This document shows positions 2,392 to 6,425 of a DNA stretch of 26,421 nt, piece after piece. Source of the stretch: a virus; the IMG/VR virus record IMGVR_UViG_3300034177_000027, positions 1-26,421 of that record; one strand, written 5' to 3'. The notes beneath the pieces were generated by a model, which made no database searches, was not told the DNA's origin, and saw only the letters and a list, made by a program, of their open reading frames with translations. Numbering within the stretch: position 1 is the stretch's first letter; the number at the start of each line of letters is the position of its first letter. The translations under genes and the position numbers were made by a program.

Positions 2392-2595
2392 TCAGGCGGC
2401 GCCGGAGGCGTCGCGTACGGGGCGCAGATACGGGCGGTGCAGGATCGCCAGACGCCCGATCTCCGCATCCGTCAGGCGGCACCTGGGGCACTGCGTCGGG
2501 TCCGGCACACCGCACTCACACGGCGCATCCCAACCCGCCTGGAACGCCTCATCCGGAGTCCGGCAGATACGCGACCGGAGGACGTCGGCGCTCAC
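2392..2595 (-). CDS. Small putative zinc-ribbon protein, 67 aa
   Basis: This very small protein has a CxC and a CxxC pair (C26, C28, C36, C39 in PCECG and QCPRC), consistent with a compact zinc ribbon or knuckle. The start is a GTG at 2595 that overlaps the stop of the upstream XRE regulator (GCGTGAGC), indicating translational coupling and co-regulation. A longer frame reaching 2652 would run into the regulator gene with shadow-like composition. The C-terminal half is helical (LTDAEIGRLAILHRPYL). The family is unrecognised. Because it sits directly behind a Cro-like regulator, it should be made early. Confidence 0.7.
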   Translation of the reverse strand: MSADVLRSRICRTPDEAFQAGWDAPCECGVPDPTQCPRCRLTDAEIGRLAILHRPYLRPVRDASGAA

Positions 2596-2852
2596 GCGGC
2601 GTCGCTCGCGGTGGCGGACTGCCCGGGGCGGCGGCGCGGCAGAGTCCCGCACGTGATGTCAGCGATGTCGCAGCCCAGAATCTGAGCCGCCTCCCGCAGA
2701 AAGCGCGGGCCACCGTTGCTGATGCCCCGCTCGACCTGGCTCACATGGGTCACCGAGAAGGCCATCCGTCGGGCGAGGTCCTCCTGCGTCATCCCCTTCA
2801 GTTCGCGTAGCTCACGGATCTTCAATCCGTCCGTCTTCAGTGCCATAGCCAC
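2592..2852 (-). CDS. XRE/Cro-family transcriptional regulator, 86 aa
   Basis: Residues about 10-65 form a textbook XRE-type helix-turn-helix: LRELKGMTQEDLARRM for helices 1-2, then the recognition segment VTHVSQVERG and a closing helix (FLREAAQILGC). The protein is essentially one DNA-binding domain plus a short basic tail, as in phage Cro-like proteins. The start is a GTG at 2852, or an ATG two codons later; the upstream Shine-Dalgarno is weak, so the mRNA may be leaderless. The gene heads the leftward arm and is divergent from a second XRE regulator at 2992. The region between them is AT-rich and full of inverted repeats. This is the classic position for one half of a lysis-lysogeny switch. 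Which of the two is the repressor cannot be decided from sequence alone. Confidence 0.85.
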   Translation of the reverse strand: MAMALKTDGLKIRELRELKGMTQEDLARRMAFSVTHVSQVERGISNGGPRFLREAAQILGCDIADITCGTLPRRRPGQSATASDAA

Positions 2853-2991: not shown

Positions 2992-3396
2992 GTGACCCCC
3001 GACGACCTCCCCCCACTGATTGGGCAGCAGCTCGCCAAGCGCCGCGAGGAACTGGATCTGACCCAGGAACTACTGGCGCGCAGCATCGGCATCACGTCCA
3101 CCACGGTCAGCACCTCCGAGCGAGGCCGCACGGTCATCAGCCGGGCGAAGCGCCCTCTCTGGGAACAGGCACTTCAGCTCAAGGCGGGCACGATTAGCCG
3201 CGCCTACCGGGACGGCACCCCGATCGAGCTGCTCGATGTGCCCGCCGAGGCCGAGCCTGCGCCCTACGCGGACATGTCGGACCGGCTGGAGCGGGCCGTC
3301 TGGGAGATGAACCTGGACGAGGCGGACCGGCGGGACCTGGTCGACATGCTGCGCAAGGACAAGGCGGAGCGGCAGGGGCGTCGAGACTCGGCGTAG
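2992..3396 (+). CDS. XRE-family regulator, candidate immunity repressor, 134 aa
   Basis: Residues about 7-65 form an XRE helix-turn-helix (LAKRREELDLTQELLARSIG, then TSTTVSTSERGRT). A linker rich in Pro/Glu/Ala follows, and then a charged helical C-terminal region of about 45 residues (RLERAVWEMNLDEADRRDL) that could mediate dimerisation. The extra C-terminal domain, the orientation toward the integrase, and the divergent Cro-like partner make it the better candidate for lysogeny repressor. The start is a GTG at 2992 with only a weak GAGAG about 13 bases upstream, so leaderless initiation is possible. I see no LexA-type peptidase domain, so RecA-stimulated self-cleavage is not expected. Confidence 0.8.
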   Translation: MTPDDLPPLIGQQLAKRREELDLTQELLARSIGITSTTVSTSERGRTVISRAKRPLWEQALQLKAGTISRAYRDGTPIELLDVPAEAEPAPYADMSDRLERAVWEMNLDEADRRDLVDMLRKDKAERQGRRDSA

Positions 3397-3501: not shown

Positions 3502-4986
3502 GTGATGAAACCCCCGAAGAGTGCTGGTATCTACTGCCGTCTGTCGTACGCCCCAGACGGCAGTCTCGAGAAGGTCGAGCGTCAGGAGTCGGACTGCCGG
3601 CAGCTCGCGGAGCGGCTGGACTGGCCGGTCTCGGATGCGCACGTCTACCCGGACAACTCGAGGTCGGCGTGGCAGAGGAACCGGAAGCGGCCGCAGTGGG
3701 ACAGGATGCTGGCTGCGGTCGACGCCGGCGAGATCGACGCGATCATCGTCTACCACGGTGACCGGCTGATCCGGCAGCCGTACGACCTCGAGCGGCTCAT
3801 CGGTATCGCGGACGCTCGGGGTGTGCGGATCGCCTCCCCGTCCGGCACCAGGGATTTGGACAGCCCCGACGACCGGTTTGTGCTGCGGATCGAGGCGGCC
3901 CAGGCCTGCCGGGAGTCGGACAACACCAGCCGCCGAGTCCTGCGGGGCGTCGCCGCGCGGGCCGCCAGAGGTGCGAGCCACCAAGGCGGCCGTCGCCCGT
4001 ATGGCTACGGCCTGCAGACCGGCACCCGGCCGCATATCGACCCACTCGCCGGCGAGGAGACCCGCGTGCCGGTCCGTGACAGGACCCTGCAGGTGCCGGA
4101 GGAGGCCGCGCTCCTGGCGGACGCGGTCGACCGGCTTCTGGCCGGGCAGTCCCAGGGCGGGGTCGTCCGGTGGCTGACCACCGAGGGCGCCGTGACCACC
4201 GAGGGTGGCCCGTTCACAGCCAAGTGCCTGCGGAACCTGGTGCTGTCCCCCCGGATAGCCGGGCTGATCGACCACCAGGGCGCCCTGTACGAGGGAGCCT
4301 GGGATCCGATCATCTCCCGGGAGACGTGGGAGGACGTCAAGGCTCTGTACCGGCGCAACGCCGAGGAGCATCCACACGCGGGCCGGTCCCGCGTGCACCT
4401 TCTGTCGGGAGTGGGCGGCGCCGAGTGCGGGCTGTGCAGGGCCACGGTCGGCGTCAAACCCAGCGGCGGCCGCAACCGGAAGACCTCCCGCATTTACCAC
4501 TGCCCCGCGTGCCGGGGTATCGGGCGCAGCGTGGAGCTCCTGGACGCGCACGTTGAGGGCCGGGTGTTGCGGCTGTTGAACGACCGCCGGTTCTCGACCG
4601 AGCTGGACGCTGGCGATGACGGGGCCCCGGGCGTCGGAGCGGAGATCGCCGAGCTGGAGCGCCGCAAGGCAGAGACCAGGCGCACGCTGGAAAACCTCGT
4701 TGACCACCCGGACGTCGACCCCGGCCTGCTCGCCGTATCGCTCGGCAGCTTTGACCGGCGGATCGCCGAGGCGCGCAGCCGGATGACGACGTCGGCCGCC
4801 CGTCGGCTGCTGCTCCGCATGAGGGGTATGACCCGGGAGGGGTGGGCGGAGGAGCCGGTCGACGTGCGGGCCGCGACGGTCCGGGCGCTGTACCGGGTGG
4901 TGATCCTGCCGACGACCCGGCGCGGGCCGGGCTTCGACGTGGACGCCGTACGACTGGAGCGCAGGCCGCTGCCGGGCATCACATAG
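3502..4986 (+). CDS. int: Large serine recombinase (phage integrase), 494 aa
   Basis: This enzyme catalyses site-specific integration of the phage genome through a 5'-phosphoserine intermediate. The resolvase-type catalytic domain covers residues about 7-155, with nucleophile S15 in the YCRLS motif, R13, the NSRSA segment near 52-56, and the DRLIR motif at 87-91. A recombinase domain follows (about 160-290, beginning RRPYGYG). A zinc-ribbon domain carries C309/C312 and C334/C337, and a coiled-coil segment lies at about 379-430. The length is typical of large serine integrases. The start is GTG at 3502, with an ATG as the second codon. The 3' end overlaps the convergent minus-strand gene by 8 bp. 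A recombination directionality factor is needed for excision in this family, but none can be recognised. Confidence 0.95.
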   Translation: MMKPPKSAGIYCRLSYAPDGSLEKVERQESDCRQLAERLDWPVSDAHVYPDNSRSAWQRNRKRPQWDRMLAAVDAGEIDAIIVYHGDRLIRQPYDLERLIGIADARGVRIASPSGTRDLDSPDDRFVLRIEAAQACRESDNTSRRVLRGVAARAARGASHQGGRRPYGYGLQTGTRPHIDPLAGEETRVPVRDRTLQVPEEAALLADAVDRLLAGQSQGGVVRWLTTEGAVTTEGGPFTAKCLRNLVLSPRIAGLIDHQGALYEGAWDPIISRETWEDVKALYRRNAEEHPHAGRSRVHLLSGVGGAECGLCRATVGVKPSGGRNRKTSRIYHCPACRGIGRSVELLDAHVEGRVLRLLNDRRFSTELDAGDDGAPGVGAEIAELERRKAETRRTLENLVDHPDVDPGLLAVSLGSFDRRIAEARSRMTTSAARRLLLRMRGMTREGWAEEPVDVRAATVRALYRVVILPTTRRGPGFDVDAVRLERRPLPGIT

Positions 4987-5296
4987 ACCGGAAGCGGTCC
5001 GCCGTCGAGGCGCGGCCCTGCGGGAACACTGGGGGCGTCGCAGGCGTCGCCGGGGGCATGGGCACCAGCCGGAGCTGCGGACGCTTCTCGACGGCGGCAG
5101 CGGCCTGACTGTACTCACCGTCGGCTGCGTCCACAGCGCGGCGCACGACGGTCAGCCACCGGTCCCGGACCGCCCCCTCCGGTTGCCGGCACGCCGCGTT
5201 CAGCGCTGCCGCGATGGCGTCGAGCCGATGGCCCAGGCGGTCGAGGTCGGCGGCTGTCCCCCCGGGAGGCTGCGGTCTGGCGCCCGCGGGTATCAC
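4979..5296 (-). CDS. Hypothetical protein, 105 aa, convergent with integrase
   Basis: The start is a GTG at 5296 that overlaps the upstream stop (GTGA), so the two genes are translationally coupled. Residues about 15-65 look like a helical domain (ADLDRLGHRLDAIAAALNAAC, then RDRWLTVVRRAVDAADGEY). After that comes a Pro/Ala-rich low-complexity tail. The 3' end overlaps the last codons of the integrase gene on the opposite strand. I recognise no family. Because it is adjacent to int and shares the divergent control region at 5479-5629, a role in controlling integration or excision is conceivable but not shown by any motif. Confidence 0.7.
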   Translation of the reverse strand: MIPAGARPQPPGGTAADLDRLGHRLDAIAAALNAACRQPEGAVRDRWLTVVRRAVDAADGEYSQAAAAVEKRPQLRLVPMPPATPATPPVFPQGRASTADRFRSM

Positions 5297-5478
5297 AGCC
5301 GGGCGGCCTGCCTCGCGGCGGCGGCCTCCCGTTCCTGGCAGCGGGGAGCCTGCGGGCACGCGCACAGCGGCAGGCGGCTGGTGTGGTCGGAGATGCCGGC
5401 GGCCTTCACCTGCCGGGTCTCCTTGAGCACGGTCCTCTCGCCGGTCCGCGGGTTGATTCTGTAGACCCCGAGCGTCAT
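5293..5478 (-). CDS. Small Cys-containing hypothetical protein, 61 aa
   Basis: The start is ATG at 5478, preceded by GGAGGGA at good spacing; a GTG one codon earlier is possible. The N-terminal half looks like short beta strands (MTLGVYRINPRTGERTVL). The C-terminal half has a CxCx5C pattern (C39, C41, C47) and an Ala/Arg-rich helix. With three rather than four Cys, full zinc coordination would need a His or a partner chain. It is the first gene of a two-gene leftward unit divergent from the GntR regulator, so the operator-like boxes at 5548-5611 lie directly upstream of it. Function unknown. Confidence 0.7.
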   Translation of the reverse strand: MTLGVYRINPRTGERTVLKETRQVKAAGISDHTSRLPLCACPQAPRCQEREAAAARQAARL

Positions 5479-5547
5479 CACGTCGGTCCCTCCGTCGCTA
5501 CTGGCCGATGGCAGCACTCACCGCCGCGTAACAGCCACGGCGTGTGA

Positions 5548-5561
5548 GTGAATTAGTTCAC
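5548..5561. promoter_or_regulatory. GntR operator-like box 1 (GTGAATTAGTTCAC)
   Basis: This is a 5-bp inverted repeat GTGAA-N4-TTCAC, the first of three similar boxes in the divergent gap. The 12-mer TGAGTGAATTAG covering its left part (5545-5556) recurs exactly at 5595-5606, 50 bp away. Confidence 0.6.
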
Positions 5562-5573
5562 AGTAGAAGGGTG

Positions 5574-5587
5574 GTGAGTTAACTCGC
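5574..5587. promoter_or_regulatory. GntR operator-like box 2 (GTGAGTTAACTCGC)
   Basis: The box contains the perfect 10-bp palindrome GAGTTAACTC (5576-5585) and matches the other two boxes at GTGA-N-TTA. Its centre lies 26 bp from box 1 and 24 bp from box 3, so the array could place dimers on nearly the same DNA face. Confidence 0.6.
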
Positions 5588-5597
5588 AAGGACTTGA

Positions 5598-5611
5598 GTG
5601 AATTAGCTCAT
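5598..5611. promoter_or_regulatory. GntR operator-like box 3 (GTGAATTAGCTCAT)
   Basis: This third copy lies 18 bp before the GntR start codon. TGAG at 5595-5598 pairs with CTCA at 5607-5610. Its position over the expected promoter fits autorepression by the adjacent GntR protein. Confidence 0.6.
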
Positions 5612-5629
5612 TAGTGGGACGCTGGCCCC

Positions 5630-6370
5630 ATGCATCCCTACGAGCAGATCGCCGACCACTACCGGCGACAGATCCGCGACGGCGCCCTCGCGCCCGGCGA
5701 GCGCCTCCCCACCGTCAAGGACCTCGCCGCCGAATACCACGTGTCCACGGCCACCGCCCGGCACGCCCTGTCCTGGCTGCAGGTCGAGGGCTACATCGTC
5801 ACCACCCAGCGCGGCAGCTTCGTCGCCCAGGAGCCGAACGCCGGCCCCAGCTCCCGCGACCGCCTGCTGCGCACCCACCGCACCGGATCGTTCCTGGCCG
5901 TCGGCGAGACCAAGCGGGTGACGTCCGCGGACGAGGTCGTGCCGCCGCTTTACGTGGCGCAGCTGTTCGACCTGGACCCGGGCGACCGGGTCATCCGCCG
6001 TGAGTACGTCACCGGCAAAGGCAGCCAGCGCCTCATGCTGGCCGTCGACTGGTATCCCGCGGACTTCGCCCGGCACGTCCCCGGCCTGCTGGGTACCGAG
6101 CCGGGCCAGCGCACTCCCGCACACCCCGGCTCGGGAAACGACCTGCTGGTGCAGATCGAGACCATCATGGGCCGCCGGGTGTCCAGTGGCCGTGACGCCA
6201 TGCACGGCCGTGACGCCGACGAACGCGAGGCCCGCCTCCTGGGCGTGCCGGTCGGCTCCCCGATCCTCGCCGGCGCACACGAGTGGTCCGACGACCAGGG
6301 CCTCATCGTCTACGGCGAATGGTGCCTGCCCTACCGCTTCGCCATCGGCTACGAGTACACCGTCGACTGA
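5630..6370 (+). CDS. GntR-family (HutC/UTRA-type) transcriptional regulator, 246 aa
   Basis: The N-terminal winged helix spans residues about 3-68: YEQIADHYRRQIRDG, then the GntR signature LPTVKDLAAEYHVSTATARH, the wing, and RGSFVA. The C-terminal half (about 90-240) fits a UTRA effector-binding domain: a FDLDPGDRVIRREYV-type strand region, and a closing GEWCLPYRFAIGYEY. HutC-type regulators bind DNA as dimers and release it when a small ligand binds the UTRA domain. The start is ATG at 5630 without a clear Shine-Dalgarno, so the mRNA may be leaderless. Three operator-like boxes lie directly upstream and also face the leftward gene pair. The ligand is unknown. A complete effector-domain GntR protein next to a phage integrase is less usual than an XRE repressor and may act as a second switch. 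Confidence 0.88.
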   Translation: MHPYEQIADHYRRQIRDGALAPGERLPTVKDLAAEYHVSTATARHALSWLQVEGYIVTTQRGSFVAQEPNAGPSSRDRLLRTHRTGSFLAVGETKRVTSADEVVPPLYVAQLFDLDPGDRVIRREYVTGKGSQRLMLAVDWYPADFARHVPGLLGTEPGQRTPAHPGSGNDLLVQIETIMGRRVSSGRDAMHGRDADEREARLLGVPVGSPILAGAHEWSDDQGLIVYGEWCLPYRFAIGYEYTVD

Positions 6371-6387: not shown

Positions 6388-6425
6388 GCGCCCCCCGTCC
6401 CGGCGTAGGCCGGGACGGGGGGCGC
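6388..6425. terminator. Perfect 17-bp hairpin between convergent units
   Basis: GCGCCCCCCGTCCCGGC at 6388-6404 pairs perfectly with 6409-6425 around a GTAG loop. It lies between the 3' end of the GntR gene and the 3' end of the late operon, so it can stop transcription from both sides. No U tract follows on either strand, which is common for terminators in high-GC actinobacteria. Confidence 0.8.

Follow-up and report, generated by a model that had tools for sequence, protein, structure and literature searches.

A predicted triple operator between a GntR/UTRA regulator gene and an integrase-side gene pair in a temperate phage

The window examined here, 26,421 bases in length, represents an entire IMG/VR virus record. 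Leftward terminase, portal, tape-measure, tail, endolysin, and tail-fiber genes are followed by a GntR-family regulator gene, two small leftward genes (g1 and g2), a large serine integrase gene, and two XRE-type regulator genes; the terminase, portal, and tape-measure genes were identified by eye and by weak matches to reading frames of the prophage region L132. Since the closest relatives of the window are Streptomyces-family genomes and phage contigs, the virus host is probably Streptomyces or close kin. No DNA-level match to the region was found among known phages. A phage integrase had been placed beside the box array by an earlier, first-pass annotation, and such a gene is indeed present (3502 to 4986, plus strand), its type being that of the large serine recombinases; it is convergent with g2, with overlapping stop codons. 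Upstream of the integrase lies one XRE-type regulator gene (2992 to 3396, plus strand), and a second (2592 to 2852, minus strand) is divergent from it. In the window and in L007 the XRE pair comes before the integrase, but in L004 and L005 it is found beyond g2, so the lysogeny module has been rearranged. A strong hairpin of 17 pairs (approximately 6388 to 6425; -59.1 kcal/mol, z -5.7) separates the GntR gene from the convergent tail-fiber gene, and the regulator therefore appears to form a unit of its own. This hairpin is a probable bidirectional terminator and, having no T-run, was missing from the terminator scan list.

The regulator gene (5630 to 6370, plus strand) encodes a GntR-family protein of the HutC/UTRA type, 246 aa in length. 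Both an N-terminal GntR winged helix-turn-helix (Pfam PF00392, 1.3e-16; 60.4 bits against a cut-off of 27) and a C-terminal UTRA domain of chorismate-lyase-like fold (Pfam PF07702, 7.6e-8; 32.7 bits against a cut-off of 23.8) were detected. The best PDB match of the protein was 1v4r (E 3e-10), deposited as 'Transcriptional Repressor' and which we take to be TraR of plasmid pSN22, while identity to plasmid GntR proteins was 31-58%. A maximum-likelihood tree grouped the window protein with those of L002, L067, L068, L098, and L099 at moderate support (86/84), within a well-supported wider set (97/99) that also contained L003 and the regulator of a plasmid bearing tra genes. The match to 1v4r, the identity to plasmid GntR proteins, and the inclusion among the tree neighbors of a plasmid regulator divergent from traA-traB show a sequence relationship to the KorSA/TraR group. 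The predicted fold (mean pLDDT 71, moderate confidence) matches DasR, PhnF, and YvoA, including their effector domains. The protein has a complete UTRA domain, conserved (59-77% among phage-side relatives) to the same degree as its DNA-binding domain. Given this conservation and the matching model, the UTRA domain may sense a ligand. The metabolite-sensing input proposed by the first-pass annotation advanced no further than that, as the domain is intact and conserved, yet no effector is known for KorSA-type regulators, that of KorSA itself not having been identified according to the study of SCO3932 (PMC8584621).

Gene g1 (5293 to 5478, minus strand), a putative target of the GntR protein, encodes 61 aa starting with MTLGVYRINPRTG, with a Cys-containing C-terminal half and 44% identity to its L002 counterpart. 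The most likely start is the ATG at 5478, where the homology to L002 begins and upstream of which lies GGAGGG, and the two proteins have the start MTLxVYRINPxTG in common. Gene g2 (4979 to 5296, minus strand; about 105 aa) begins with a GTG at 5296 that overlaps the g1 stop (GTGA), which points to one translationally coupled operon. Neither gene had a match in Pfam, PHROGs, or NCBIfam, and no tra-like gene was recognized beside the regulator. Peptide-pattern searches of viral contigs yielded no relatives of g1 or g2; direct comparison with the fetched loci did. Relatives of g2 adjoin the integrase gene in L002, L004, L005, and L007; those of L004 and L005 follow an XRE gene of the same orientation. 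A weaker, partial resemblance to g2 was seen in L086. In the window, a gene that usually accompanies the XRE/integrase module thus appears to stand under a putatively GntR-controlled promoter. Judged by eye, g2 of L002 (L002:6416-7135), L004, and L005 carries a membrane-like segment and a long tail, and the window g2 ends after the common N-terminal part.

Three boxes begin at 5548, 5574, and 5598 between these divergent genes, with centers 26 and 24 bp apart, exactly as first described. Box 1 (5548 to 5561, GTGAATTAGTTCAC) and box 2 (5574 to 5587, GTGAGTTAACTCGC), both predicted operators, are self-complementary at 12 of 14 positions, and predicted operator box 3 (5598 to 5611, GTGAATTAGCTCAT) at 8 of 14. 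The inverted symmetry originally ascribed to all three is thus strong in boxes 1 and 2 and weak in box 3 of the window, being stronger at the corresponding L002 site. The reported 12-mer TGAGTGAATTAG was likewise recovered as an exact repeat at 5545 and 5595, 50 bp apart, within a 16-nt repeat of 15/16 identity. To avoid circularity, a scan motif was derived from L002 and L003 only, with the window left out. The three boxes were the top three places in 26 kb (scores of 20.4, 23.7, and 17.7 for boxes 1, 2, and 3, respectively); the next-best score, 9.3, was at 5594 in a register overlapping box 3, and away from the boxes the highest score was 8.4, at 5105. Dinucleotide shuffles of the window (300) gave a mean of 0.01 matches at that threshold versus the 3 observed, and when the 151-bp intergenic region was shuffled 3,000 times the number of matches never exceeded one. 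A chance repeat as the origin of the boxes is ruled out by the scan and the shuffles.

The boxes fall on two predicted promoters. The leftward one (5560 to 5589, minus strand) consists of the -35 element TTGCGA (5589-5584), an 18-bp spacer, and the -10 element TACTGT (5565-5560), and by prediction is a good actinobacterial promoter. The rightward one (5594 to 5623, plus strand), a presumed promoter with a weak -10, combines TTGAGT (5594-5599), an 18-bp spacer, and the -10-like GACGCT (5618-5623). The promoters stand back to back, with their -35 elements 4 bp apart. Box 1 covers the last part of the leftward -10 together with the predicted leftward start (near 5553); box 2, which has a matching place in L002, L067, L068, L098, and L099, overlaps the leftward -35 and spacer; box 3 extends from the last part of the rightward -35 into its spacer. 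A simple sigma-70 promoter scan detected no promoter. The pattern TTGnnn-17/18-TAnnnT was present at the corresponding place in six of seven loci (window counted), with a box in the spacer every time; it occurs in 0.2-2.5% of shuffled regions, giving P of about 8e-11 for six of seven when the loci, though partly related, are taken as independent. GACGCT ends only 6 nt ahead of the GntR ATG, an arrangement common to L002, suggesting that the gntR transcript is probably leaderless. In L002, box 3 has moved 4 bp with respect to the promoter but keeps its palindrome, which fits a site retained for binding. This displacement is part of the reason why a simple identity comparison between the window and L002 (31/42 in the boxes, 66/109 in the rest of the intergenic region) is uninformative. 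The g1 leader also contains a seven-codon frame, GTGAGTGCTGCCATCGGCCAGTAG (MSAAIGQ; 5498-5521, minus strand), possibly a remnant, or else a leader peptide; the same MSAA- start opens a full-length divergent gene in L003, L067, and L098.

The same GntR/UTRA gene is preceded by two to three boxes of the family TGAnnTAnnTCA in another phage, in prophages of Streptomyces, and in one Streptomyces chromosome. The first-pass annotation had suggested looking for the box in related phages with the same gene order, and phage contig L002 bore this out: its GntR protein is 76% and its integrase 61% identical to those of the window, the counterparts of g1 and g2 stand in the same order with one additional small gene between, and the GntR gene is preceded by three boxes, of which two differ from the consensus GTGAGTTAACTCAC at one position. 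Streptomyces sp. JJ66 (L003; GntR 60%) has two boxes. Of 395 sampled genomes of the Streptomyces family, 35 had a match at the strict cut-off. TGAnCTAGnTCA-type boxes were found in three copies in L098 (67%), in two copies each in L099 (65%) and L067 (61%), and in three degenerate copies in L068 (60%). Most of the more distant homologs (50-57%) also have TGAnCTAGnTCA-like boxes ahead of the gene, e.g. TGACCTAGGACA or TGAACTAGTTCA, and a few lack them. The predicted operator family is TGA-N2-TA-N2-TCA, with the window in a branch whose centers lean to TTAA. The recognition-helix residue after Arg is His in the window, L002, and L003, which have TTAA-type centers, and the centers are CTAG in the others; this correlation was not taken as independent evidence because the His rows are few and related. 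Box spacings vary among relatives (26/24, 28/21, 22/27, and 23/27), an argument against a cooperative complex of fixed geometry. In L086, a gene divergent from the GntR homolog (L086:1432-1854, plus strand) resembles, by eye, a short serine-recombinase N-terminal domain.

A GntR domain above the family cut-off was absent from all 14 further phage records that have a related integrase, and the array was found at none of these 14 GntR-less loci (9-17 kb in length, some records being fragments), several of which retain related XRE genes and a g2 relative. No further array copy was present in the 26.4 kb of the window or the 38.7 kb of the L002 contig. Together these results tie the boxes to the GntR gene and, as far as seen, make the regulon a local one. 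The link to the integrase is looser than had been claimed, as most phages with a related integrase are without the GntR gene. Moreover, in the regions around L098 and L099 (L132 and L133, respectively), the GntR gene adjoins lysis and tail genes, i.e. lies near the prophage end, and in L133 a probable tyrosine integrase (by eye) is located about 40 kb off at the opposite end.

Closest in kind to the window are KorSA/SCO3932 and TraR. These HutC regulators belong to mobile elements of Streptomyces and bind both their own promoter region and the one of a neighboring gene of the element. KorSA of pSAM2 and SCO3932 of an AICE remnant in S. coelicolor, GntR/HutC repressors of AICEs, combine GntR and UTRA domains as does the window protein. 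SCO3932, a KorSA homolog, is divergent from its neighbor, resides in an element with a serine integrase, and binds the promoter region shared by kor and pra, as shown by gel shift and footprint; of the two sites there, one contains a repeated motif (PMC8584621). The window has the same type of layout, with the predicted operators between gntR and g1 and on both promoters. The SCO3932 motif, however, is AC[TC]T[AG]TT[GC][TG][GT]ACG as compared to TGAnnTAnnTCA, and the neighbors of SCO3932 and KorSA are pra, tra, and rep genes, whereas those of the window are small uncharacterized genes in a tailed phage. A TraR-like regulator with 58% identity, on the linear plasmid NZ_CP109424, is divergent from traA-traB, but the palindromes of its control region differ from the window boxes. 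DasR, NagR (YvoA), and PhnF share the two-domain fold with UTRA at about 20% identity to the window protein, which, unlike metabolite-responsive HutC regulators, is without nearby metabolic genes. HutC operators mostly have a GT-N4-AC core, with known exceptions in the subfamily, and divergons of GntR/HutC regulators with more than one site are common (PMC4494728). The window boxes have TGA-N6-TCA in place of that core, which, given these exceptions, does not strictly define HutC membership. The best reading of these comparisons is that the window regulator represents a phage-borne branch of plasmid/AICE TraR-KorSA-like repressors, the type of protein that restrains conjugative plasmids.

The boxes are in all likelihood the operators of the adjacent, autoregulated HutC-type repressor, which would occlude both promoters and so silence its own gene and g1-g2. 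With three sites on two back-to-back promoters, the protein very probably shuts off itself and the two small integrase-side genes, and the repression of both sides first proposed for this control region is well supported by the comparative evidence. The rightward promoter would drive gntR and the leftward promoter the coupled g1-g2 operon, which ends against the integrase gene. Protein dimers would occupy box 3 in the spacer of their own promoter, box 2 on the leftward -35 and spacer, and box 1 on the leftward start site, excluding RNA polymerase from both promoters by steric repression. The regulator would in this way cap its own level and keep g1-g2 silent, probably during the prophage state. 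Both promoters would be released if the UTRA domain read a signal, or on infection, when the protein would be missing. In this scheme the boxes with their conservation, the promoter-like elements in register with them, and their association with the gene are what we observe; binding, repression, ligand, and time of expression are what we infer.

The same protein might instead bind the array and activate the leftward operon, or repress one side and activate the other, as overproduced SCO3932 raised the activity of target promoters (PMC8584621); the boxes lie on the leftward promoter spacer and start site, the usual position for repression, rather than upstream, and activation is considered improbable. 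A slightly lower probability still is given to the operators belonging to a phage XRE protein in a CI/Cro-like switch, with the GntR gene a bystander. Lambda-type OR1-OR3 also places three palindromic operators between divergent promoters of a temperate phage, and the window has two XRE genes 2-3 kb from the boxes. An exact 14-mer scan of viral contigs returned 47 loci, nearly all single matches and mostly in AT-richer contigs, and an array only in L039, an unrelated phage contig of 40% GC. There, the exact consensus GTGAGTTAACTCAC and two variants, GTGATTTAACTAAC and GTGAGTTAAATCAC, follow each other at 22-bp steps (1982-2039). On one side of them is the gene of a CI-like repressor whose C-terminal domain looks LexA-type by eye, and on the other a small Cro-like gene; hence the palindrome alone cannot name its protein. 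The array was assigned to the window GntR protein because of gene association and position. Lambda-type arrays differ in being bound by XRE/CI proteins, in their regular spacing, and in the lack of a GntR gene. Against an XRE role, L004, L005, and L007 retain related XRE and integrase genes without the GntR gene and without boxes, whereas the boxes accompany GntR homologs into loci that do not have these XRE genes, e.g. L003. Being palindromic and no more than about 600 bp from the serine integrase gene, the repeats might be taken for recombination sites (attP, or sites of the integrase or a directionality factor). This reading is very improbable, as the boxes are also found with GntR homologs at chromosomal positions away from this integrase, are missing beside related integrases, and coincide with promoter elements.

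Repression by the adjacent GntR protein through a three-site switch is thus well supported and fairly ordinary in kind; its phage setting beside an integrase-side operon is the less usual part. No experimental work on this phage regulator group was found in the literature searched, and the analysis supplies predicted operators and promoters for the group with exact coordinates. The compact divergent promoter pair could also be used as an expression tool. More broadly, the locus connects temperate phages of Streptomyces to the plasmid and AICE regulators of the Kor/TraR type. A tentative extension, which we consider rather unlikely as it stands, is that Streptomyces temperate phages hold a kil-kor repressor branch as a second, ligand-gated lysogeny control, in which the triple operator would restrain an operon containing g2 of the XRE/integrase module. 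The physiological state of the host, acting through UTRA, would then shift the balance of lysogeny or excision in a way that does not depend on the XRE switch. If the UTRA domain does read a host signal, the site would provide a handle on host sensing by Streptomyces prophages.
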